Source of the DNA: Holtermannia corniformis
Lineage: Eukaryota; Basidiomycota; Tremellomycetes; Holtermanniales
Reading direction: 5' to 3'
DNA length: 64,000 nucleotides
Assembly: GCA_001599935.1 (NCBI GenBank)
Contig: BCIJ01000012.1
Location: forward strand, 39,500 to 103,499
Shown here: piece after piece, positions 6,216 to 62,297 of the stretch
How the letters are laid out: each line of letters begins with the position of its first letter
Numbering within the stretch: position 1 is the first letter of the stretch
Position numbers and translations under genes: made by a program
Notes under the pieces: generated by a model
What the model was told of the DNA's origin: nothing
What the model saw: only the letters and a program-made list of their open reading frames with translations
The model's database searches: none

Positions 6216-7575
6216 ATGCCCATCGACCTGGTTGCGTTTGGAGCTCTTGCCGGGTCTGCAACCGCACTCGTCTACGCTCTCTACACGATGCCGAGCTCTC
6301 GCCAACAGTTTCTCGGCCCCGGCTGGGTCGACGGCGAGTTTGCGCCGTTGAGAAACGACATGATGCTCCGTGCGGCCCGCGGTCCGTCTCTCGGTCTCGA
6401 CAAGGCCTAGCTGACATGTACAGGCGAGGAGACGGAGCGTGCGCCCGTGTGGGTCATGCGCCAGGCAGGTCGCTACCTCCCTGGTCCGTCTCTCCGGTTC
6501 TTCACCCAAACTGACCATCAGAGTTCCTCGAGCTGCGCAAGAAGCACTCGTTCTTCGAGTGCTGCCAGACGCCTTCCCTCGCGTGCGAGCTCACGCTCCA
6601 ACCGATCCGCCGGTTCTCGGGCCTGCTCGACGCCGCCATCATCTTTTGCGACATTCTCGTCGTCCCGCAGGCCATGGGCATGGTGGTCGAGATGCATCCT
6701 GGCGCCGGTCCCGTCCTGCCTTCACCCCTCGTCACCCCTGCCGATCTCGAACGCCTGCACAAGACGGTCGATATCCACAAGCAGCTAGGCTACGTGTTTG
6801 AAGCGATCAAGCTCACTAGGGAGGCGCTGCAGGGCGAGGTCCCGCTGATTGGCTTCTGCGGTGCGCCTTGGACTCTGATGGCGTACATGGTCGAGGGCGG
6901 CGGCAGCAAGACGTTTCAAAAGAGCAAAGAGTGGCTGTACCGCTACCCCGAGGCGAGCAAGCAGCTGCTGTTGCGCATTGCCGATGTCTGTGCGGATCTC
7001 TTGGTCGGCCAAGTGCTGGCTGGCGCTCAGGTGGGTTTTCTCATCTATTCTGCTACTCTACACCTACCATGCTGACCGCGCAGATGGTCCAAGTGTTCGA
7101 CTCGTGGGCGGGCGAGCTCACGCCGTACCAATTCGAAGCTTTCGCCCTCCCGGCCCTCGTCTACATCCGTGAAAAGTTCCACCGCGTCCTGACCGAGCTC
7201 TCGCACCCGATCCCACCCATGACGCTGTTTGCAAAAGGCGCAAACGACAGCATCACCCTGCAGTCGGCCGTGGCCGGCTACGACACGCTCGGTCTCGACT
7301 GGACGATCGACCCGGTCAACGCGCGCGCCCTGTCGGACGCAGGCAGTGAACAGGCCGAGCAAAGGAGGATGACGTTCCAGGGCAACTGGGACCCGGTCGT
7401 CCTGTACGCTGGTAGGGACGGGATCGAGCGTGAAGTCGAGCGCGTCGCGCAACGCTTCAAGGCCGCGGGCGGGGCCTGGATCGCAAACCTCGGCCACGGC
7501 GTGACGCCGCAAGTCAAGCCAGACGACTTCAAGTGGTTCCTGCAGTGTGTGCACCAGTATACCCGCCGAGGATAG
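6216..7575 (+). CDS. hemE: Uroporphyrinogen decarboxylase
   Basis: Four exons: 6216-6381, 6424-6483, 6522-7030, 7084-7575; 408 residues. It decarboxylates the four acetate side chains of uroporphyrinogen III to coproporphyrinogen in heme synthesis. Family signatures are clear: RAPVWVMRQAGRYLPEF (substrate-binding loop), GFCGAPWTLMAYMVEGG, DSWAGELTP and NLGHGVTP near the C-terminus. About 45 residues precede the conserved LRNDMMLRAARG and include a hydrophobic stretch (VAFGALAGSATALVYAL), unusual for this cytosolic enzyme. An in-frame ATG at 6288 would remove most of it. Introns 1 and 2 both begin GTCCGT. Confidence 0.95.
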
Positions 7576-10556: not shown

Positions 10557-10621
10557 GTGTGAGATACGTGGGATAGAAGTGTCATCTGAATTTGTTGCCC
10601 TCAGATGCAGCCGACCTCGGC

Positions 10622-10708
10622 AGCGCTGACAATGGAGTTTTTGGCGGCGCTCGGCGGGATGTCTGGTTGCCGTTGCTCCGCGCCATGGTAGCGCTGACAA
10701 TGGAGTTT
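10622..10708. repeat. Direct repeat, 19 bp, two copies
   Basis: The 19-mer AGCGCTGACAATGGAGTTT occurs at 10622-10640 and again at 10690-10708, just before the first small Cys-rich gene. A diverged CAGCGCTCGG follows at 10741. It may be the debris of a local duplication or a shared promoter element. Confidence 0.7.
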
Positions 10709-10763
10709 CCTATCGGCAGACCAAGACCAGCACACATGGGCAGCGCTCGGCAAGATGGCTGGG

Positions 10764-10797: not shown

Positions 10798-11118
10798 ATG
10801 GTCAAGTGCAGCAACTGCCGGCAAGCGTGCGACTCGTCCTATACGGGCTACCGGCTCTGCGCTTCGTGCTCAGTGCTCACCTCTTGTCGCGAATGTGGCG
10901 AAAAGGTCGCCAAGGGCGATACAAGCACCGAAGGCGATTGCGAGGCATGTTTCTACATCCTCCATCGCTCGCTCGACTTTGAATGCGAGAAGAGCACCTG
11001 CTCGACGAAGATCACGTCTGCGCAAGGTGATCAATGCGCACTCCATGGCGGGTCGCGCTTGCCAACCATGCAGCAGATGCCCGGGCTGTGGAGCAAAAGC
11101 CGTTGGAAGCCGTATTAA
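10798..11118 (+). CDS. Small Cys-rich protein, family A, long form (copy 1)
   Basis: Single exon, 106 residues, no signal peptide or membrane segment. Cys pairs: CSNC near the start, CASC, CREC, then GDCEAC, an FEC-x5-C unit and C-x2-HGG. The arrangement suggests two or three zinc-binding sites. It shares the order CxxC - CxxC - CxxC - EGDCxxCF - DFxC - AQ - C - HGG with the four other copies downstream. No known family recognised. The ATG at 10798 is preferred because it follows a TATA box. Confidence 0.8.
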   Translation: MVKCSNCRQACDSSYTGYRLCASCSVLTSCRECGEKVAKGDTSTEGDCEACFYILHRSLDFECEKSTCSTKITSAQGDQCALHGGSRLPTMQQMPGLWSKSRWKPY

Positions 11119-11419
11119 TACACAGATGACCAATCAGGCCATGTGCTATCATTGTACTGCGGAGCAGTGCTGTCACTGGGGCGCTCCGAAGCAGATTGTC
11201 CAGTGTGGCCCTTGATCGCTTTCCCGTTGCTTACCGTCGCCCGCCTGCTGCTCTGCGCCGCGATCCCCTTTGTCCTAGGTTGCTCTTGATCCGGGCTCAG
11301 AAAGGGTCGTCGCGCAGGGTCCTCCCGCGTTGTATCGGAACATCGCCCCGCTCAGTGAGCTGGGTTCCAAGCCGGAGAACGTGCATAAATAGCTCACTTT
11401 TCATCAGCGACACTCAGCA
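11119..11419. other. Intergenic spacer in the family A array
   Basis: No coding signal recognised. It holds a TATA-like CATAAATA at 11384-11391, 29 bp before the next ATG. Confidence 0.5.
11384..11391 (+). promoter_or_regulatory. TATA box of family A copy 2
   Basis: CATAAATA ends 29 bp before the ATG at 11420. Spacing matches that of copy 1. Confidence 0.5.
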
Positions 11420-11755
11420 ATGCCCAAGTGTAACAACTGCCGCCAGCCACTGACGCTTCCTATCGCCGACGGCGACTCTACCACTTTGTGCGAGACATGC
11501 TCGGTGCCCACTACTTGTAATGAGTGCCAGAAACTCGTGCCAATAGGGGAGACGAGCACAGAGGGAGACTGCCGCTCGTGCTTTGACGTCATCCAAAGTC
11601 ATCTAGACTTTGACTGCGAGCACGAAACCTGCAACACCAAGATCGCGTCTGTCCAAGGAGAGTACTGCACCCGTCACGGTGGGAATCCCAGGCCGAAACC
11701 GTCCAAACTCGAGACGGCCTGGCGTGGGAGCCGATGGAAGCCCTCGACAGAGTGA
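11420..11755 (+). CDS. Small Cys-rich protein, family A, long form (copy 2)
   Basis: Single exon, 111 residues. The N-terminus MPKCNNCRQ parallels copy 1 (MVKCSNCRQ). Then CETC, CNEC, TSTEGDCRSCF, FDC-x4-C and YCTRHGG appear in the same order and spacing. The tail also matches: copy 1 ends SRWKPY and this one GSRWKPSTE. The similarity is protein-level over the full length, so this is a tandem duplicate kept under coding constraint. No signal peptide. Confidence 0.85.
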   Translation: MPKCNNCRQPLTLPIADGDSTTLCETCSVPTTCNECQKLVPIGETSTEGDCRSCFDVIQSHLDFDCEHETCNTKIASVQGEYCTRHGGNPRPKPSKLETAWRGSRWKPSTE

Positions 11756-12010
11756 TCTCCCAGTGAGATGAACAGCAGCAGTAACCATTCCCTTGAATCA
11801 CGATAGCGAGTCGGAGTTACCTTCCGCGGACTGCAGACAGGGGAGCATTCCCTTATGACAGCAAGTCTGCATCTTGCATGACGTCGTTCAAAGGGACTCG
11901 GTAGCACTTGCCATGGCGATCACAGCTGCTGGTCAGGCCAAAGAAACACGCATAACATGTCCTGCGCTCACCACTGGGCACATATTGCGCGGTGTTGCGG
12001 CCGGAGCAGC

Positions 12011-12283
12011 ATGTCCAAGTGCAGCAGGCCGAGCTGCGTCGGAACCAGTCGTGCACAAAGCCTGGAGACCCAGCGTCCCCGTCTGGAACAGCCGAGCGGC
12101 AGGCGTGTGGTCTCACTGTGCAACGACTGCGTTGGAATCTTTACCGTCCAATATGGATTTAATCCAGGCTTTGATCTCTGCAATGCCTCCAATGTCACTC
12201 ACAGACCCAACACCGCTCAAAGGGGTACCAAGCCTCCTTGTTACGCTTGCCCGCAGATTGTCCGACGCCTTCGCAAGCGCTGA
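12011..12283 (+). CDS. Possible small Cys-rich protein inside the family A array
   Basis: Open frame of 90 residues, intronless, on the same strand and in the same position series as family A. It has eight Cys with KCSRPSCVG near the start, LCNDC in the middle and PPCYAC near the end. It lacks the GDCxxCF and HGG signatures, so it is either a strongly diverged member or a chance ORF. The tail is basic. No clear TATA box. Confidence 0.4.
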   Translation: MSKCSRPSCVGTSRAQSLETQRPRLEQPSGRRVVSLCNDCVGIFTVQYGFNPGFDLCNASNVTHRPNTAQRGTKPPCYACPQIVRRLRKR

Positions 12284-12330
12284 TAACGCGGGTACACTGC
12301 TCGTCGTTGAGATGTAGCAGACTTCAAGCC

Positions 12331-12672
12331 ATGCCCCCAACGTGCAACAATTGTGCATCGACCCAATCGTCCGGCTCGCACCTGTGCGGGACGTGTTCCG
12401 CGCCTGTCAAGTGCACAGAGTGCCAGGAGTCTGTTCCGCGTGGCAACACCAGCAATGACGGAGATTGCCGTAAGTGCTTTGAAATCATTTACCGCGATTC
12501 CGCTTTTCCTTGCTCGCAATGCGAAACCAAGATCACCATGGCGCAGGGTGAGAAGTGCAGCCGGCATGGCGGCAAACCCAAGCTGTCGCTGCGGGCGTTC
12601 GAAGCCCTGTGGAAGGAGGAGCGATGGAAGCCAGACAGTGGGTCCGGTCAGACGCAGCCCGAGTCTTGCTAG
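12331..12672 (+). CDS. Small Cys-rich protein, family A, long form (copy 3)
   Basis: Single exon, 113 residues. Family signatures in order: CNNC, CGTC, CTEC, NDGDCRKCF, FPCSQC, ITMAQGEKCSRHGG and the RWKP tail. The insertion of KLSLRAFEALWKEE before RWKP matches the equivalent helix in copies 1 and 2 (MPGLWSKS, LETAWRGS), suggesting a C-terminal helix after the metal sites. No signal peptide and no TATA box seen. Confidence 0.85.
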   Translation: MPPTCNNCASTQSSGSHLCGTCSAPVKCTECQESVPRGNTSNDGDCRKCFEIIYRDSAFPCSQCETKITMAQGEKCSRHGGKPKLSLRAFEALWKEERWKPDSGSGQTQPESC

Positions 12673-12862
12673 CGCGAGGCAGGAACGTCGCTGCTGCAGA
12701 TGCAACCCATGGCCTATCTGAAGTGCCTTCGCGGTGGTGATACCTAGGCCACGTCTGCTTTGTATATCCGCGGTGAGGACAACGGTGAGCAGCCAAGCAC
12801 AACTCAGCAAATCAGGTCCAGAACAGAGGAGCGTTTCCTTTGCCACGAGTCATATCGCATAG

Positions 12863-12868
12863 TATAAG
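12863..12868 (+). promoter_or_regulatory. TATA box of family A copy 4
   Basis: TATAAG, 41 bp before the ATG at 12910. Confidence 0.45.
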
Positions 12869-12909
12869 ATGGGCACTGCCTCGCCACGACCGTCATCTGC
12901 ACCCACACC

Positions 12910-13155
12910 ATGTCTGCGCACTGCAGGGAGTGCGGAACGGAGACTTCCAAGTACGCGCTGACCAATGAGGGCGACTGCTACAAGTGTTTCACATACTTGC
13001 ACCAGCAGCGCGACTTTCCTTGCCAGGCTGCCAACTGCAGCGAGACAACGACGAGTGCCCAAGATGGCAGATGTTCAAACCATGGGGGCTGTCCGGTCTT
13101 GGAAAATGAGGAGGATCTCAACAAAAAGTACAACTCTATGCTTTGCTGTGGCTAG
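12910..13155 (+). CDS. Small Cys-rich protein, family A, short form (copy 4)
   Basis: Single exon, 81 residues. It lacks the first two CxxC pairs of the long form and begins directly with CREC. It then has NEGDCYKCF, DFPCQAANC, TTSAQDGRCSNHGG and a different tail ending NKKYNSMLCCG. So the core shared by all copies is CxEC, GDCxxCF, DFPC and AQ-C-HGG, and the RWKP helix is replaced. A close partner is copy 5. Confidence 0.85.
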   Translation: MSAHCRECGTETSKYALTNEGDCYKCFTYLHQQRDFPCQAANCSETTTSAQDGRCSNHGGCPVLENEEDLNKKYNSMLCCG

Positions 13156-13380
13156 CATCAAAGGGTCCCTGCGAATACCGCAAGGACTTGCACAGCAGTC
13201 ATGCATCGTCTTGTCGTCTTGAGCTGTGCACTGCCCGACTGCGAGATCGGACAATCATCTTGTCAATCTCCGAGTCTCAGCTGATTTCAAAGGTATCGAT
13301 CGGGTCGACGTCGTATGCGCCGCCCGAATCGGCGCCATATCGGCTAAAGTGCTACAAGGGTACGTTGGAGTATCCGAGGA

Positions 13381-13386
13381 TATAAT
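13381..13386 (+). promoter_or_regulatory. TATA box of family A copy 5
   Basis: TATAAT, 29 bp before the ATG at 13416. Confidence 0.5.
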
Positions 13387-13415
13387 ACGCCGCACGTATC
13401 TCGAGCCACTCCACA

Positions 13416-13673
13416 ATGTCGTCCGATGACTCGACCTGCCGCGAATGTCAAAAGCCATCGAGCCGCTTCGTGCGGACGACGGAAGGCGACTGTTTTACGT
13501 GTTTCCGCCTCATTCAGCAGAGCCGTGACTTTCCATGCAGTGCTGGGAATTGCTCAACCCTGACGACTTCGGCGCAGAACGAGCGGTGCGAGGCTCATGG
13601 CGGCACAGCGGTCCCGTCGGACGAAGAAATGATGAAGCTGTTCAACAGCATGCTGCCGTCCACAACCCACTGA
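13416..13673 (+). CDS. Small Cys-rich protein, family A, short form (copy 5)
   Basis: Single exon, 85 residues. It follows copy 4 closely: CRECQKPSSRF, TEGDCFTCF, DFPCSAGNCSTLTTSAQ, RCEAHGG, and a tail with MKLFNSML that aligns with NKKYNSML. Copies 4 and 5 are the most similar pair by eye, so this is probably the youngest duplication. The gene ends 26 bp from the convergent gluconokinase gene. Confidence 0.85.
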   Translation: MSSDDSTCRECQKPSSRFVRTTEGDCFTCFRLIQQSRDFPCSAGNCSTLTTSAQNERCEAHGGTAVPSDEEMMKLFNSMLPSTTH

Positions 13674-23077: not shown

Positions 23078-25042
23078 ATGAGCGTCTTCGACTCTGCGCA
23101 GAAAGAGTACCCTTTCGACAAGACGGCCTGGGTCAAGGATCTGCACGCCAACTACTGGGGAAACCCTGATAAAGTCGTCGAGAAAGTCTGCGAGGATGCG
23201 GGACGTCAGTACGAGGTCGTGTCGACTCGGCTACCAAACGTGTGGAACGTCGTGACCAACGACGTCGTCCTTGTGCGCCAAGACTACCACCGAATGTGGA
23301 ACCACATCTCGGCCGATTATGAGGACCGTATGAGTAAAAACCAACCCGGCGGCTTGTGCATCTATGGTCATCCGGGAATCGGTCAGTGCGCTCAGACTTG
23401 CGAGTGACGCGCTGACAGGCTTGCTTTAGGCAAGACGTATGCCCTTTTCTTTGTGCTTCTGCGTGCGTTGGGTGCACAGCTTCCGACCGTCCTCGTCTTT
23501 GCAAAGATGTACTACGTTATCACCAAGGAAACCGTGTCGGGCCCTTTCAGCAACGACGAAGCCGCCCCACGGTATCCCACCAAGTCTCTCATCATCCTCG
23601 ACTCGTCGAGGGCAAAAACCCCACCACCCGACTTGCACATTGACACGACGGCCTCGTCATACGTCGTCCAGGCCACGCCACCGGGCGTGGATCGCTGGTC
23701 GAGCTGGGTCAAGGAACTGAACGCTCGAGTACTCGTCATGAACCTTTGGACCTTGGACGAGTTCAAAAAGTTGCTGTCAGTCGACCTCTTGCTTCCTGTC
23801 TGGATATTGACGTATCCAGCGCCGTACGAGCTCTGGCCAACACCCTTCAAACACCATCAGAGCCATGTTACTCGGCAGAAGACCTCTTCTGCCTTATCGG
23901 GCCTTCTCCTCGTGCCATCTTCCATACACAACAGACGGTCACCAAGACAGACAACATCCATCACGACTTCCGCGACTTGTACAAAACAATCGGGCAGATT
24001 GCGACTGTCACCAATGATGGAGGTGATGGCCATACAGTCGCGCAACGCCAGCAGCAGTCGAGCTTTCACAACCTTTTCTATGTCCAACCCGACCAAACTG
24101 AAGCGGCGCAAGAACCCATGTTCACACTTGTCGTCCCGACGGCGTTCCTGCGAGAGATCTTTGCGTTCGCCCGCGTCAAGGTCAACCTCGATGTGGATCT
24201 CAATTGGCCATCACATTTCTCGCAGGTGCCGGGCTTGCACGGCGCGCTCTTCGAAGCTTACAGCGCCAAGCGGCTTGCGCATCGCCCAAAATTGCTCGAC
24301 TGCCATTTCGCCAATAGCAACTACTCGTTCCAGCTCCCCTGCATCATCCCTCGCTGTCCAATCCTTGTCAAGTCTGCGGCCGGCATCGAGCTTCAGTGGG
24401 GCATGCTACAGTTCCCTGAGTCGCCACAGCAGGAAGACTGGGACGCGATTCTGGGCTACACCGGCCCGCAGTCGTGGGTTACGAAGTTGTTCAGGCCAAA
24501 GGAGAGTCAGCGGCGTCTCATCTTCTTCAACTTCACCGTCGCCCAAAAACATGGCATCAAAGGCAAAGGCATCAAGCAGGTGCTGGAAAGTCCAGACTAC
24601 ACCAGTGCGCCCTGCGATGTCGTCTTCGTCTTTGTCGTCCCGAGTCGTGAGATCGGAGTTTCGGTCACGGCCAATTTCTGGAACCAAGGGACAAGGATCA
24701 AAGCGAATGATCACCGTCGCAAGTCGCACGATGTGACCGTGCAGGTCGGTTATGCTGTCATTGAGGTGGCTGGCTTTGACGAGAAGGTGAATTCTTTCGG
24801 TGAACAACTCGGTCGCGGTCTGACTCGAACAGGTTGCGGATCAAGCCACGTATGACCTGTATGGTACAAATATCGACCTCGAGAAATTCACTCAGCCGGG
24901 CGCAAACGAAGACATCGAGGGCGCGGGCTCGAAGCGTCAGCCCACCACCGAAGGCCAGTCCGACACCGAAGGCCAGCCCACCGCCGAAGGCCAGCTCACC
25001 TTCTTACGCAATGTCACCGGCAAACGCACGCGCTCCTCCTAA
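23078..25042 (+). CDS. Crinkler/RHS-like P-loop NTPase (copy 1)
   Basis: Exons 23078-23381, 23430-23775, 23820-24786 and 24833-25042; 608 residues. The Walker A GHPGIGKTY is split by the first intron. A Walker B-like SLIILDSS follows, then DRWSSWVKELNARVLVMNLWTLDEFKKL and AEDLFCLIGPSPRAIF, which are typical of fungal Crinkler/RHS-type proteins (NTPase followed by a nuclease-like region). The C-terminal half has FFNFTVAQKHGIKGKGI and VVFVFVVPS, matching the conserved end of that class. The last exon has short repeats of the type TEGQP. There is no secretion signal. Role is unproven; oomycete relatives act in host nuclei and others in conflict between genetic elements. Confidence 0.75.
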
Positions 25043-37626: not shown

Positions 37627-40356
37627 TTAGCCTTGAGCTTCCTCGGCGCCGTACGCGTTGCTCTTGTGTTTCGGCTGGTAGGTGAACCCAGAGTCGGTCG
37701 GGCCGAGGAACATTTCCGTGATTTTCTGTCAGGTCAGCTCTGTCGACAACCTCGTCCACTCACGATCCAGTCGCCGCTGAACGGACTGGCGAGTAGCGTC
37801 TCTGTTGAGCTTAGCGCCTAAACTGTCGGCGAAGCGCTTTACGTACCCAGTTCGGAGCGACCCTTGTACGCCGGCGGCCGGTCGTTCATCTTGCCCGGCA
37901 TGGTCTCGAGCAGACCGATAGGGATGTAGCGGTGCTGGAACGACAGCGCTTCACACATGAACCGCCGAGTGATGTTGACGCCCTGAGTGTCGGATCCCCA
38001 GTGACTCAGGCCGTATTCCGCGTACTGCCAATTAGCACGAGCAAATGGTGCGGGAGATACGCACCTTGCGGATGCCTTCGAGACGCTCAACGGCACTAAT
38101 GTCCCATTCACGACGCTCGGCGATTTCAGTAAACAGCCAAGGCTTGATCAAAGCTCCGCGAGCGACCATGACGCCGTCAACGCCGCTTTTCTGCGTGGCG
38201 TCAGTCGGCAAGCAAGGCGGGCGCACCAGACGAACCTCCATCTCCTCATAGTACGATTGGGCAGAGTAGCAATCGCCGTTGCCAAAGATGGGCACGTGCG
38301 GCAGATTGGCGTCCTCTGTCGCCGCCCGAAGCTCATCGACGCACTCTTTGACATATGCCCAATCGGCGAGCTTGGAGTAGCGCTGCTGGCGAGAGCGGCC
38401 GTGGAGCTGTATGCATAAGCAGGGCTGGTTGATGATTGAGATCACTCACAGTCATGGCCGACACGCCCCACTCGTTGGCAAAGCGCGGGATCAGCTTGTG
38501 CGCCGTGTTTCTCTTGTCGAGCACGCCGGTGCGCTGCGGGGTCAGCTCGTGTCGCGATCTGCCGTCCAACGCACGAATTTGACCGTCACGGGGACTACGT
38601 AGTCAGCTTCGGTAGGTGCAGGTCGAAATCACTCACTATCACCCAGAACCCTATTCATGCCGATGAGAATCTTGCCCAATCGTCCAGGGGCGTCGAGCAC
38701 TGTCGTCATCAGTCCAAGCCTCGCATATCGCCCACACGTACAAGCACTGCCAGCGCCCTGATTGAACACTAAATCAATCGGGCAGCCCTATCCACATCAG
38801 CCAGTAGACCAGTAGAGCCACACCAACTGACAAGGTTGACGTCGACAAAGTCGACGCCGGCTCCAATCTCGCGCTGGATAACTTCAGCAGCCGGGACGAG
38901 GCGGTTCGCAAACCCGCCGGCGATCTGGACGCCAAACATCTTTTCCGATGCGTGGCGCCTCGTGAGCGCCCAATCGTCTGCTTGGCCGGCGAGGAGCGGA
39001 TTCGAGAGCGCCATTTCGGAGCAGGTGATGGTTGCGCCATAGTCGACGCACAAGCGGCGGAACGGCTGTGGGTTTAGTACAGCGATCCAGTTGACTGTAG
39101 GACCCACCAGATTCCCAACGGTCGTCAAGGGGGCAAGATAGAGTCCGCCCTGCCAATTCAGCCTACGCTTCTCCTCGGGCCGTATCCGCGCCAGATCGAC
39201 CTCGCCCATCTCCTTTTCCTCTTTAATCTCTACCGCTGGCGGCGCGACATCGTTCATAGCCGCCATCTCTTCCTCTTCCGTCAGCGCGATAGTGATCTTG
39301 CGCTTCTGAGCAGGTTTCGGCGCCGCCTTGGGTGGACGCGAATCGCCCGTCAGGCTAAAGTGCTTGTCGGGCTCAATCTCGTGTAGGTAGGCGTGAGATT
39401 GCGGGTATTCATACTGTCCGGTTAGCTGATTTCGCTACTGTGCACGACCCACCTTGGCGCTGCGAATCTTGGCGACCGTATCCCTGTCCAACCAGTTGAC
39501 TTCGTTTTTGCGATCTCTGCGGGTGCGCTCTTCGGTGCTCATCCCTGCGTCGAGGAGCGACCCCCTGATGCGATACCCGTCGACGACGCGCTCGCCGTCA
39601 TCCTCGACCCCGGCTTCAACCTTGTCGACATGACCGGACAAGAAGCGACACTTCCACCCGCTCGGGCAGTAGCCGAGATCGTGGTATACAGGGCAGTAGG
39701 CTGTGGGCGAGTGGGTGATAGAAGCCAGCAGAGAGCCTGCCGGCTTGGCTTGCTGTGGTTCAGTCGTGCTGGCATCCGTCGCGGCCGTGGTGAGATTGCT
39801 CGAAAACGGCAAAGGGTAGGGCTCGGCAATGTATGGTGGCTCGGGCTTGAAAGAACCAGACGGCGGGAACGGGATATCAGCCGGCTTGGTCGCAAAGTAG
39901 GCCATGAAGTCGTGCGAGAACTTGCAGTTTGGCTTGCCTCTGCGTCGAGTCAGTCCCTACGCTGTTCGCAGCAACGACGCACGCCTTGTCGACATATGAA
40001 CACTGGCCGTTGGTGAACGCCTTGCAGAGCTGGACACCCTGATCGCCTACACGGCCGAATCGACGGCCCTTGTTCTGTCCCGAGCGCTCTTTCTTTTGCT
40101 CTTTGGTCAACCGAGGCCGCTTTGACTCGGTTTCGTTGGCATCGTCGTCTGGCACGGCGGCTTGGGATGCGTTCCCGATCGTCTCTGCAGGGCCAGAGGG
40201 AGTAGACGTCGACTCGAGCAGATATCTATCACAGCAAGGTCAGCTCCAGCGTCCAGGATGATCAGAGGGTTCTCACTCTGGCTTGATGGGAGCGATGCCT
40301 TTTCTCGGCTGATCGCGAGCGTCGATGGGGATCGGAGCAGCGTCTGCGCTCGCCAT
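37627..40356 (-). CDS. DUS3: tRNA-dihydrouridine synthase 3
   Basis: Minus-strand gene from ATG 40356 to TAA 37627-37629. It reduces uridine 47 in the tRNA variable loop, using FMN and NADPH. The N-terminal part has two CCCH fingers ([14 protein letters not shown] near 40000, and [17 protein letters not shown]5-H at about 39640). The catalytic domain has [90 protein letters not shown] and [18 protein letters not shown]. The end [23 protein letters not shown] and PKHKSNAYG fits Dus3 closely. A small 3' exon had to be joined by frame. Confidence 0.92.
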
Positions 40357-53348: not shown

Positions 53349-55210
53349 TCAAGCACCCACGGGTGGCTCCGTGCCAGCCAGAGGGGCGGACATGGTGAAC
53401 GTGTAGTTTGACAGATCCATGTTGGTGCCGTATTGCCGTCGCAGGGCTTTGACACGTTCATCAGACTATCGGTGTGAGCCCATCCGATCCAACAACACGG
53501 ACAAGATGACTCACATCGTCGTCCGTGTCGAACCCTGATAATTTGATCACGGCATAGCCAACATGCACGGTTCTCATTCCGTGTCCGGGCACAGAAAGGG
53601 TTCTGCCCTTGGTCCAAAACTTGTGCGTGACAGATTTGCCAATCTGTTCGGTTGGGACGACGAATACGAGAACGGGCTCCGTTGGGTTGTTGCAGTGGTC
53701 CCGGCGCGCGAGTACCGACTTGATTCCTGCGCCGGTGATCTCGTGCGACTTGGCGACGGTAAATTTAAAGAAGATGAGCTGCTTGACAACCTCGGCGGCC
53801 TCGATGCCGGTGCTCTTGTACCTCATCATCGCGTCCCAGTCAGGGTGCCTACTCGAGACGGGGACAAGGAGCTCGTTCCAGCCGAGGTCGAGGTCGTCAT
53901 TCACGTCCAAGATTAGACGCGGGGGCCTAAGGATGGATGGTAGCGAAACCGAAAAGTTGACGTTCTGGAAGTAAAGTTGGAGTGGCTCATGGCGCTGTTG
54001 CAGTCGCTTCACGCCATACGCCTCGTAGATTACGCCTGCGACTCCCGACACTGGCGTGATGCGTGACAGCCACGCTTTGTCGAGGCTCTCGAGTTGGTTG
54101 AGCACAAACCACTGCAAGACCAGCGAGAGGAAGGGGGTCGGGACGAAAAGCGAGAACATCGGCCGGAGATACGACCTCGCTTGCTTGGGTACCACGAAAA
54201 AGACCCTGTGAAAGCCGGATTCTTGCGCACGAGACGGAGCCAACGTCGCGCCGGCGTGCGTCGTCTGCAGCTGGCCGAACGCGACGATTTGCTCGACATC
54301 TTGAATGAGATCCTCAAAGTCGTTGTAGAGGTTGCCCGTCTTGATAACGCCTTCCCGTGCGAAGATGTCTCGCGGACAAGGGCCAACGAGGCCAAAAAGC
54401 TCTTCGGGTGTATAGCGATCGAGATGTGCAGTACGTTGAGAAACCTTGCGATGCGGCTTGTGAAAGATCTTTCTCACGGCGCTAGAATCATCAGCCATGA
54501 TGCAGATTGGTGCGGAAATGACTTACACGAGCTTTTTGAACTCGACCAGATTCCAAAGCTGCATGACCACTACTTTGGCCGACAAGTTCTTGGTGATGGA
54601 GCCATAGTTCTCGAGCGCCGGCGATGCCGCGAGCACAATCCATGGTGCACACGACTGCTGCAACCTCTTGGAGTAAGGATCACGTCTGACTAGCGAGGCA
54701 TCGACCAAGGTGAGCATGCCGCTGCGGTACACAAAGTTGATTTCCGAGTAGAGGCGGCACGAGACACCTCCCGCGGCTTCTTCGTCGAACATAATGTACG
54801 CGGGCTCGTCACCGATCCAGACGTCGGTGGCAATGAAAGGGATCTTTGCCTGCAGTGCGCGAATGAGAAGGTAGTATAGCAGATATGTCTTTCCTAGCAG
54901 CACTGTCAGCCTGCCGCACACGGCAGCAACGAGTGATCGCCTCACCGATCCCGGGATGACCACATACACAGAGTCCGCCGGCCTCCATGCCCCGCGTTTC
55001 ATACCCGTCCTCGACGAGATCCCACATCCTGACATACTCGTCACGCACAACTACCCTGTCGCCGGGCGTCATGGTCCAAACTGCTTCTGTTGGGTCTGCG
55101 AGTACTTTGACTTGACCATCAGGTGTCGAGACATGCTCGAACGGGTCTTGGTTTCCCGTCCAATATTTCTGATACAGCTGGATGCACCAGGCAGGCGCTA
55201 CCGGTGGCAT
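53349..55210 (-). CDS. Crinkler/RHS-like P-loop NTPase (copy 2)
   Basis: Minus-strand exons 54946-55210, 54527-54893, 53515-54481 and 53349-53465; 571 residues. Start ATG 55210. Walker A is GHPGIGKTY, with the intron at the same place as in copy 1 at 23 kb. A Walker B-like LTLVDAS, VVVMQLWNLVEFKKL, YTPEELFGLVGPCPRDIF, FFKFTVAKSHEITGAGI and LVFVVPTEQIG follow. Exon 3 is 967 nt in both copies, and intron positions agree, so they are true paralogues. The end has YGTNMDLSNYTF against YGTNIDLEKFTQ in copy 1. No signal peptide. Confidence 0.75.
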
Positions 55211-59465: not shown

Positions 59466-61851
59466 TCACTCTACATCCACTTCGATCGGCGTACTTTGCG
59501 AGCCTGGCGACGGCTTGAAGTAGGTCTGCAAGGACGTCTGCGAGAGACTCTGGGATCTGGCAAGACGCAAGTCTCTCGCAGCGGTCTGCAAGCCAGTACG
59601 TAGGCTTTGCCACTCATCACCTTGCGACTCTGCATGAGCTTGCAGAGTCGCAATCGCGGCTTGTACCGCATCCTGGGACGGTGCAGCGGCTGCCTGGGAG
59701 CCTTGCGATGACCCTGCAGAGCCGTGAGTAGCCACGATCTCGAAATCTGAGTCTGACTCGTATTCCAAGTAGCTTGCCTCAGCCTCGTCGCGAGCGACGG
59801 CGAGGAGCTCTGCCGGCTCCATGGGCTCTGGCGCGTAGTGTCCGGCTTCGTCTTCGCGCGCAACAAGGTCGTTGATGGCAATGCGGTTCCGGCGCGGGAC
59901 GATTTCGGCCAGTTCAAGTCGATTCAACGCGTTGGACAAGCCCTCGAGCGCGATTGCAAGCCCTGGGTCGTGGCTGTGGCCCGAGGTAAGCTCATGCGGC
60001 CGTCAAACGCGTTGATACTCACCTGGAACCGTCCTCAGTGATTATCTCAATGTCCAATTCGCCTTCGGCGTCCTCCTCGCCCGGTAGGATTCCTGACTTG
60101 CGCCAGCAGTTGACGATAGTCTCAGACTGCACCATCGACCACGCCTCGCTCGCCAAATTGATCGCCTCAAGCAGATTCATCCGCCAAATGTCCTTGACGC
60201 CGGCAAATCCCTCGTCGAGCCTTCGAACCGCGCGCTCGGCGAATAGACGGCGATAGCAAGCCTTGAAAGCGGCAATAACACCCTGGTCGAGCGGTTGGAT
60301 GTGCGAAGTCATGTTGGGAGCGAGGAATTCGAGGTGGATGTTGGTGAGTACGATTGGTGGCTCGTCCTTGACCGTCTGCTTTGCTGCTTTGGCCTCTGCC
60401 TCGGTCTTGAACTTTCTCGGATCGATCTTGGTCTCCTCGCGACTCAACAAAGTGTGTACTTTGGCGTTGTCGAGGATCAGAACAATCTTGCGTCCTTCCG
60501 ATGCGAGACGGCGATCCCACGCGTCGATCCAGCGCGTAAAGAGCCACGCCGTCATGTAGGCGCTCTTCTGATGCGTGTACATGAAGCCGAGCTCACTCGG
60601 CGTCTTCTTGTTAAAGCACTGAGGGCGCTCGGCCGTGCCAATGATGAAAGGCTCTTCCTTCTCGCCCAGAGCGTTGACGGTGAAGGCGTACGTGACGCGC
60701 TCGCGAGCCTTCTGCAGGCCAGGCGCCCGTACATGTGCGAGACTGCGGTCTGGGATCATCCTGTGTACGGGTGAGTCTCTTTCTGATGTTCTGCGCATGA
60801 CGTAGACGTACTTCCAGTACAACCCGGTTTCGTCCATGTTGTACGTGTCTTTGAGCGGGTACTTGGCCAGAAGGGCTTGCAGACGCCGCCTCTCGGGTGG
60901 GACAGTTGTACGATCAACCGATCCGGCTTCTCCGTGCTCGAGGTAGCCGTGCAGACCCTTCCGAAGCTTGAANTTCTGCAGCCAGCCGCGACTAGCTTGC
61001 GCAGGCTNGGGAGTAGGNTGCAGAAAGGCGTGNAGCTTGGTGTATTGCGCCAGGAGGATCGAATCGCTCAATCTGGCACCTTTGGCGAGGGATTGGTCGA
61101 CCCATCNGCTTAAAGCCGCCTCGAGCAGCGGCAAGCGCACCCTGCGCGTGCGCCGGCGGCCTGGCAGCGAGAGCGAGTTGGCCTGGCGCCACTCGACGGC
61201 CGTCTTGATCCAACGATGAATCGTCGGGTGCGAGAGCTTCACCTTCGGGTACATGATACGTGCCCAGCGCAGCGTGGCCATGGCCGTATTCCCTGGTTTA
61301 GACTCGTGATACTCGAGAATAGCGAGGTGCTCGCCAATCGTGGCATGCCTGCCAATCTTGTCGAGAGCCTTGATGGCTTGTATCTCATAATTGGGTCTGG
61401 CTCGAGGGCGCCGTCCGGTGTGTGCTTGGTGCGCGGCGGCTCGAGCATTGATGGTGGCGTCCTTGGCCTCTTGGGTGAGTGGGCGCGGAGCATCGATGGC
61501 GAAAGTCACCCGTGGGCGCGCCGTAGGTGCGCTCTGCAAGTCGTACTCGTCGAGGAGCTCCTGGAGGACCCTCTCAAAGCCTTGCCCGGCACCATCTTTG
61601 GCGGCTTCGAGGGCTAGAGCGTGCTCGCAGAGATTGCCAGCTTCGTCTAGCCAGTCATCTTCATCCTTTGTGCGGTTCGGTTTGCGCTTCAAAGCCGCCC
61701 GAGTAGCNTCAATCCTCTCAGTCATGAGGTTGTAGCCACGCTGCAGCTTCGGGAGCAGCGCGTAGTCTGCTGGCAGCACCAGCTGCGTAGCCAGACGGCT
61801 CTGCGGCGTCTGCTGGGTCTGGGATTGGGTCTGGGATTGGGTCTGGGACAT
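59466..61851 (-). CDS. Pogo/Fot1-like transposase (DDE_1 superfamily)
   Basis: Minus-strand exons 60812-61851, 60023-60760 and 59466-59973; 761 residues, frames agree. ATG 61851 opens a Ser/Gln/Thr repeat (SQTQSQTQ). A helix-turn-helix and CENP-B-like DNA-binding part (HPTIHRWIKTAVEWR, GWLQ-x-FKLRKGLHGYLEHGEAG) precedes the DDE core: YNMDETGLYWKMIPDRS (first Asp), VLILDNAKVH (second Asp) and PNMTSHIQPLDQGVIAAFKACYRR (third Asp). All three catalytic Asp are kept. The gene may be active apart from unresolved bases. The tail is acidic. Confidence 0.9.
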
Positions 61852-62297
61852 GGTGTGCGATGACGAGGGTCGGTGGCTCAAAGACGGGGATGTGAGAAGA
61901 GCTGCAGAGCACTGCAGCGTCCCGTCCCAGCTTTGAGCCGCGCTGCAGACGCGTCGCGCACCAGACGTGCATGATCTAGATTTGGACCCGTGACGCCTCA
62001 TTGCGCGCCCCTCCGTTACCGTTTCTGCAGCTCTGGCGCCTCGGAGAGCGCGCTGCCGAGTGCCAGGGACGTTGCAATCACTGCAGAGCGTGTTTAGCGG
62101 CTGCTGACGTGCTCACAGGACCCAAATCAAGCCTTCGCGCATCTCTAAAGTCAAAATTTCGTAAATGGACATCCTGAACGCGTGCCCAGTTGTCATCTAA
62201 AGAGGCATGTATCCATTTTCCTGCCGTAACCATAGGGAAATGCTCGAGAGGAGCATTTCGACGTCCATCTACAGAGGCCTCTCATTTATGGAGCTTC

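Follow-up and report, generated by a model that had tools for sequence, protein, structure and literature searches.

A tandem array of five small cysteine-rich, putatively zinc-stabilised proteins in Holtermannia corniformis

Among the described cysteine-rich modules, the RING finger has eight ligands in a C3HC4-type order, the A20-type finger has four cysteines with the spacing C-x2-4-C-x11-C-x2-C, the WRKY19-type zinc finger (Pfam PF24906) ends in C-x2-HG, and the HGGxSTG domain (NCBIfam NF041373) occurs in phage proteins, some of which are annotated as small terminase. These modules, together with the double zinc ribbon DZR (PF12773), are compared here with the small cysteine-rich products of five genes (g1 to g5), which form a tandem array at positions 10798-13673 of a 64,000-nucleotide stretch of the basidiomycete Holtermannia corniformis (the window; positions 39,500 to 103,499 of contig BCIJ01000012.1, assembly GCA_001599935.1). 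The process behind the family is of an ordinary kind, with a small zinc-finger-like gene being duplicated in tandem; the sequence family itself is new as far as searched. With a probability of about 0.4, the five products are lineage-limited, small intracellular proteins stabilised by zinc, which derive from an old tandem duplication and are held by purifying selection.

For none of the five proteins was a Pfam or NCBIfam model found at or above its cut-off; the statement of an earlier reading of the DNA (the sequence-only reading) that no family matches them thus holds, in the sense that neither a confident family match nor a homologue in the collections searched was obtained. Of the weak profile matches, those to zinc ribbons are the strongest: residues 5-38 of g3 share the CxxC...CxxC...CxxC order of PF12773 (24.7 bits, E 2.6e-5), but remain under the 27.3-bit cut-off, with the other four of the five proteins not listed, and the match leaves GDCxxCF, the HGG finger and the tail uncovered. 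NF041373 has in common with the array the CxxHGG ending and the C-C-C-H order; however, g5 reaches 14.5 bits where 29 are required (again, the other four of five are not listed), and in the phage pieces the first two cysteines are about x9-10 apart, whereas in the array proteins they are separated by x4 (x2 in g3) and the STG is missing. The hhalign alignment of the family profile with nine of the ten fetched phage HGGxSTG pieces is limited to 11 columns around CxxHGG, at a probability of 40% and an E-value of 0.0003 that applies to one single comparison. In the case of PF24906, model positions 4-24 of 24 align with residues 66-88 of g2, but at E 3 and with a score of 8.2 bits, the cut-off being 27; genome-wide, this model gave eight matches at E<=10, none of them above cut-off and none inside the array. 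The third site of the array proteins, C-x4 (or x2)-C-x11-C-x2-, resembles the A20-type finger, but its fourth ligand is a histidine in five of five, and no A20 model appeared at E<=10. In the literature, nothing was found on CxxHGG zinc motifs, HGGxSTG, WRKY19-like zinc fingers or lineage-specific tandem families of this kind.

Anatomy of the array and selection on its genes

The coordinates and reading frames of the five open reading frames (ORFs; Table 1), which follow one another in the same orientation on the + strand and run intronless from ATG to stop with intergenic gaps of 301, 575, 237 and 260 bases from g1 to g5, agree with the five intronless same-strand genes of the sequence-only reading. 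The ORFs are true paralogues; indeed, the pairwise alignment scores of ten out of ten pairs beat all 300 shuffles (z 11.7 to 43.2). The core of all five proteins is C-x2-C-x14-C-x2-C-x11-C-x4-C-x11-C-x2-H-G-G, with the sole exception of g3 (x2 for x4), the loops x14, x11 and x11 being constant in all copies. The five-protein alignment contains 17 invariant columns, which include the eight core ligands (seven cysteines and one histidine) and HGG, the invariant non-ligand residues being E, G, D, F, F, Q and GG. The motif set first proposed as shared by all members (CxEC, GDCxxCF, DFxC, AQ, C, HGG) needs a small correction: the F and C of DFxC and the Q of AQ are present in five of five, while the D and the A occur in only four, given that g3 reads AFPC and g2 reads VQ.

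Two types of protein, long and short, had also been distinguished, and this division stands. In g1-g3 the core is preceded by an N-terminal ribbon-like C-x2-C-x10..16-C-x2-C, with a middle spacer of x13, x16 and x10, respectively, and is followed by a tail of the form W...RWKP, while g4 and g5 start directly at the core and have an NSML tail; the number of cysteines per protein is 7-12. Identity within a type is 48% for g1-g2 and 53% for g4-g5, and this likeness of same-type neighbours is as expected from tandem duplication. Compared with the tail, the first core module is more conserved in nine of the ten pairs and the HGG finger in all ten.

Table 1. Genes of the array, ligands of g1 (residue numbers) and TATA-like boxes; nucleotide positions are those of the window.
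Feature	Position	Strand	Description
g1	10798..11118	+	long type, 106 residues, tail LWSKSRWKPY
g1 ribbon-like part			C4-x2-C7-x13-C21-x2-C24
g1 core ligands			C30/33/48/51/63/68/80-H83-GG
g2	11420..11755	+	long type, 111 residues, tail AWRGSRWKPSTE
g3	12331..12672	+	long type, 113 residues; C61-x2-C64 replaces x4
g4	12910..13155	+	short type, 81 residues, without N-terminal ribbon, tail KKYNSMLCCG
g5	13416..13673	+	short type, 85 residues, tail carrying SDEEMMKLFNSML
TATA-like CATAAA	10764..10769	+	ATAAA begins 33 bp before g1 ATG
TATA-like CATAAATA	11384..11391	+	ATAAA begins 35 bp before g2 ATG
TATA-like TATAA	12863..12867	+	begins 47 bp before g4 ATG
TATA-like TATAA	13381..13385	+	begins 35 bp before g5 ATG

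The claim of the sequence-only reading that the genes are coding and under constraint is sustained by the pattern of substitution: third codon positions are the most divergent in all ten gene pairs, and the proportion of nonsynonymous differences (pN, 0.36-0.51) is below that of synonymous ones (pS, 0.66-0.88). For the ratio of nonsynonymous to synonymous substitution rates (dN/dS), a value near 1 in genes without expression had been named as refuting; all six pairs in which it can be computed lie away from 1 (0.02, 0.14, 0.34, 0.36, 0.50 and 0.52); these values are imprecise, dS being saturated (infinite in four of the ten pairs), and the 0.02 of g1-g2 depends on a meaningless dS of 26. The same analysis gives no hint of faster protein change when the five proteins are taken over their whole length. 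The saturation of synonymous sites, combined with limited protein change, indicates old copies under purifying selection. Codon-usage likelihood places the true frame best of the three + frames in five of five genes and best of all six frames in three of five, a weak test, since the true frame scores slightly below zero in all five genes and unverified ORFs were part of the training set.

Search for relatives

The family profile, run against 2450 six-frame ORFs (the window plus 40 kb upstream), recovers g1-g5 at E-values from 1e-50 to 3.9e-32, the next match being at 0.31; in the 20.2 Mb assembly, five matches were obtained with g2, g5 or g3 as query (extended to E 10 for g5 and g3), all of them in the array. 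Outside the genome, about 5.8 billion proteins were searched by a method which depends on shared 5-residue words: the five-sequence alignment as query yielded 68 candidates, none at E<=1, and the consensus yielded zero candidates. Scans with two short peptide patterns each gave 38 pattern matches in viral contigs and 53 in prokaryote genomes, where fungal orthologues could not show, with no confirmed relative in either. A search of the assembly for 5.8S rRNA gave no match.

The reach of the protein collection can be judged from a control, the URO-D exon at 6868-7572 (+), for which it holds 1298 matches at E<=1e-20. Among the best 120 of these 1298, the top one is a metagenome protein (78% identity over 69% of the query; encoded on a 13 kb contig), and the highest-scoring organism-labelled matches are from the Tremellomycetes Cryptococcus, Cryptotrichosporon and Kwoniella, at about 58% identity (up to 59% within Tremellomycetes); the other labelled matches of the best 120 are from Agaricomycetes. 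Since basidiomycete homologues are found, the collection covers the phylum, though no close named relative appeared. Small genes are often overlooked in annotation; the term orphan denotes here the lack of any match in the collection and is no claim of uniqueness. Tandem zinc-finger-like families are common, and one that is well conserved and for which no relative turned up among 5.8 billion proteins offers a clear-cut candidate for a folded family specific to a lineage; moreover, the variation of the N-terminal ribbon and of the tail among paralogues of one array makes it a tractable case in which to see how such orphan proteins come by their partners. The family could enter the zinc-finger catalogue once a structure or partners had been established.

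Putative zinc sites and alternative explanations

The near-constant loops and the invariant residues other than cysteine point to folded structural metal sites and not to loose metal storage, and we infer from the sequences that the metal bound would be zinc. Judging from the number and spacing of the ligands, the core would hold two structural zinc ions, and a third might be accommodated in the N-terminal ribbon of the long form. The proteins would remain inside the cell; in agreement with the earlier claim of a missing signal peptide, the N-termini of g1-g5 (e.g. MVKCSNC, MSAHCREC), judged by eye only, show no hydrophobic stretch in five of five. The AlphaFold2 models are of middling quality, with a mean predicted local distance difference test (pLDDT) score of 78.1 for g1 and 69.9 for g5 (block values of 92-94 at residues 21-50 of g1), and gave no convincing match to a solved fold. 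They predict a helix after GDCxxCF, from the second CxxC onward (residues 49-58 in g1, 27-36 in g5), as in treble-clef fingers, and a probable second helix in the tail (94-101 in g1, 69-79 in g5). It may be guessed that the proteins serve as small adaptors that bind protein or nucleic acid; the conserved core would provide the scaffold, and the tail, which diverges between the types (RWKP versus NSML), would select the partner, each gene perhaps being switched by a TATA-type promoter of its own.

A more ambitious version of this reading, which we hold only tentatively and consider distinctly less probable, is that of a new zinc-dependent fold class of one basidiomycete lineage, in which a treble-clef-like finger is joined to a CCCH 'HGG' finger, a zinc ribbon has been gained or lost, and a C-terminal docking tail has been swapped within the array. 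The helical moment of the tail, which exceeds that of shuffled sequences in g5 only, counts against the preferred reading in that it weakens the docking-helix version; a conserved amphipathic tail helix, also considered, was dropped on the same ground.

It is unlikely, if worth some weight, that the array encodes transcription or RNA regulators, whose ribbon, treble-clef-like and HGG fingers would touch DNA or RNA and in which the acidic tails of the short form would recruit machinery. Among ten phage stretches, three genes with the annotation small terminase subunit contain an in-frame CxxHGG finger, g3 resembles the double zinc ribbons, and the tails of g4 and g5 are net acidic (-2 each), that of g5 having a strong helical moment; but the alignment with the phage domain covers the 11 columns mentioned above, the tails of g1-g3 are net basic (+4, +4 and +1), and no strongly basic surface is evident, the net charge up to HGG being -2, -7, 0, -2 and -1 in g1-g5. 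The proposal that the five proteins are degenerate RING- or FYVE-like cross-brace proteins of ubiquitin or membrane pathways is quite improbable. It draws on weak structural matches to RING, RBR, FCS and FYVE domains and on the RING of TRIM34 (PDB 2egp), which is the best PDB match of the family profile (E 0.0013; with g2 alone, E 0.1), aligned on CxxC-x11-C-x4-C; furthermore, His68 of g2 lies at the place of the fourth RING ligand, within x4 (C66-E-H68-E-T-C71). The sixth ligand is, however, absent in five of the five array proteins and the fourth in four of five, an extra CxEC pair is present upstream, and no RING Pfam family scores above cut-off. Apart from TRIM34, the PDB profile search at E<=10 listed only MasC (E 0.75); because the list contains no second RING chain and RING ligands are missing, the TRIM34 match is ascribed to composition and shared spacing, although the family may have a distant link to RING.

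Slightly less probable still are metallothionein-like, metal-buffering proteins induced under metal stress, with which the cysteine content, the tandem copies and the TATA-like boxes of four of the five genes would be consistent, but which fit poorly with the near-constant spacing and the invariant non-ligand residues, both suggestive of folded sites. The lack of any relative found, the tandem copies and the tails, less similar than the cores, could also be those of effectors or interference factors that leave the cell without a signal peptide and have diversified under antagonistic selection; we regard this as a remote prospect, given that no signal peptide is seen by eye, no host is known and whole-length protein change shows no sign of acceleration. 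Very improbable, finally, is an iron-sulphur cluster in place of zinc at the four-cysteine sites: over CxEC-x14-GDC there is an alignment with MasC, a small subunit (with g2 alone, of which it is the best match, E 0.034) and a separate stretch of g2 (49-82) matches BssC_TutF (E 6.8), but these scores are very weak, and the last site has a histidine and zinc-finger-like spacing. Zinc-stabilised intracellular proteins remain the reading preferred here.

Upstream boxes and surroundings of the array

With the exception of g3, for which no ATAAA or TATAA was found 20-60 bp before the ATG, each gene has a TATA-like box at this distance (Table 1), that is four of five array genes, whereas of the window's 871 + strand ATGs such a box precedes 18, the four array genes included (hypergeometric P 6e-7, a generous value, because of this overlap, because the test was chosen after the boxes had been seen and because most ATGs of the background do not start a gene). 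A shared promoter motif beyond TATA was not found, no 7- to 10-mer being present in at least three of the five upstream stretches. Directly upstream of g1, at 10608-10762, there are direct repeats of 20-24 bases which are 80-95% alike, such as a 22-base pair at 10619/10687.

Between g2 and g3, where the array has its longest gap, lies an ORF (11957-12283, +) which was considered as a sixth copy and is unsupported by the family profile: it is not among the best 25 profile matches of the 2450 ORFs (E up to 5.3). Its start region is 81% like that of g1 over 21 bases, its cysteines are scattered, and tblastn matched it weakly twice, at E 1.0 and 3.5.

The neighbouring genes point to no pathway for the array: on the upstream side there is, besides the URO-D exon (E 9e-35), a carboxylesterase-like gene (tested piece 20.1 bits, under the Pfam cut-off of 27), and downstream, on the - strand, a kinase-like ORF (SKI, 27.8 bits, cut-off 22.1). 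A subtelomeric location is unsupported, in that neither TTAGGG nor CCCTAA occurs in the first 10 kb of the contig and the array begins about 50 kb in. Elsewhere in the window, two related ORFs, 23746-24852 (+) and 53461-54498 (-), are 40% identical to each other and belong to a family with 26 matches on 13 contigs (itself and split pieces counted); neither has a Pfam match at E<=0.01, and they are reminiscent of fungal retrotransposon-hot-spot or crinkler-like proteins. A further ORF, 60019-62001 (-), contains several N positions (X in translation) and is transposase-like, with matches to DDE_1 (E 8e-30) and to a Tc5-type helix-turn-helix.
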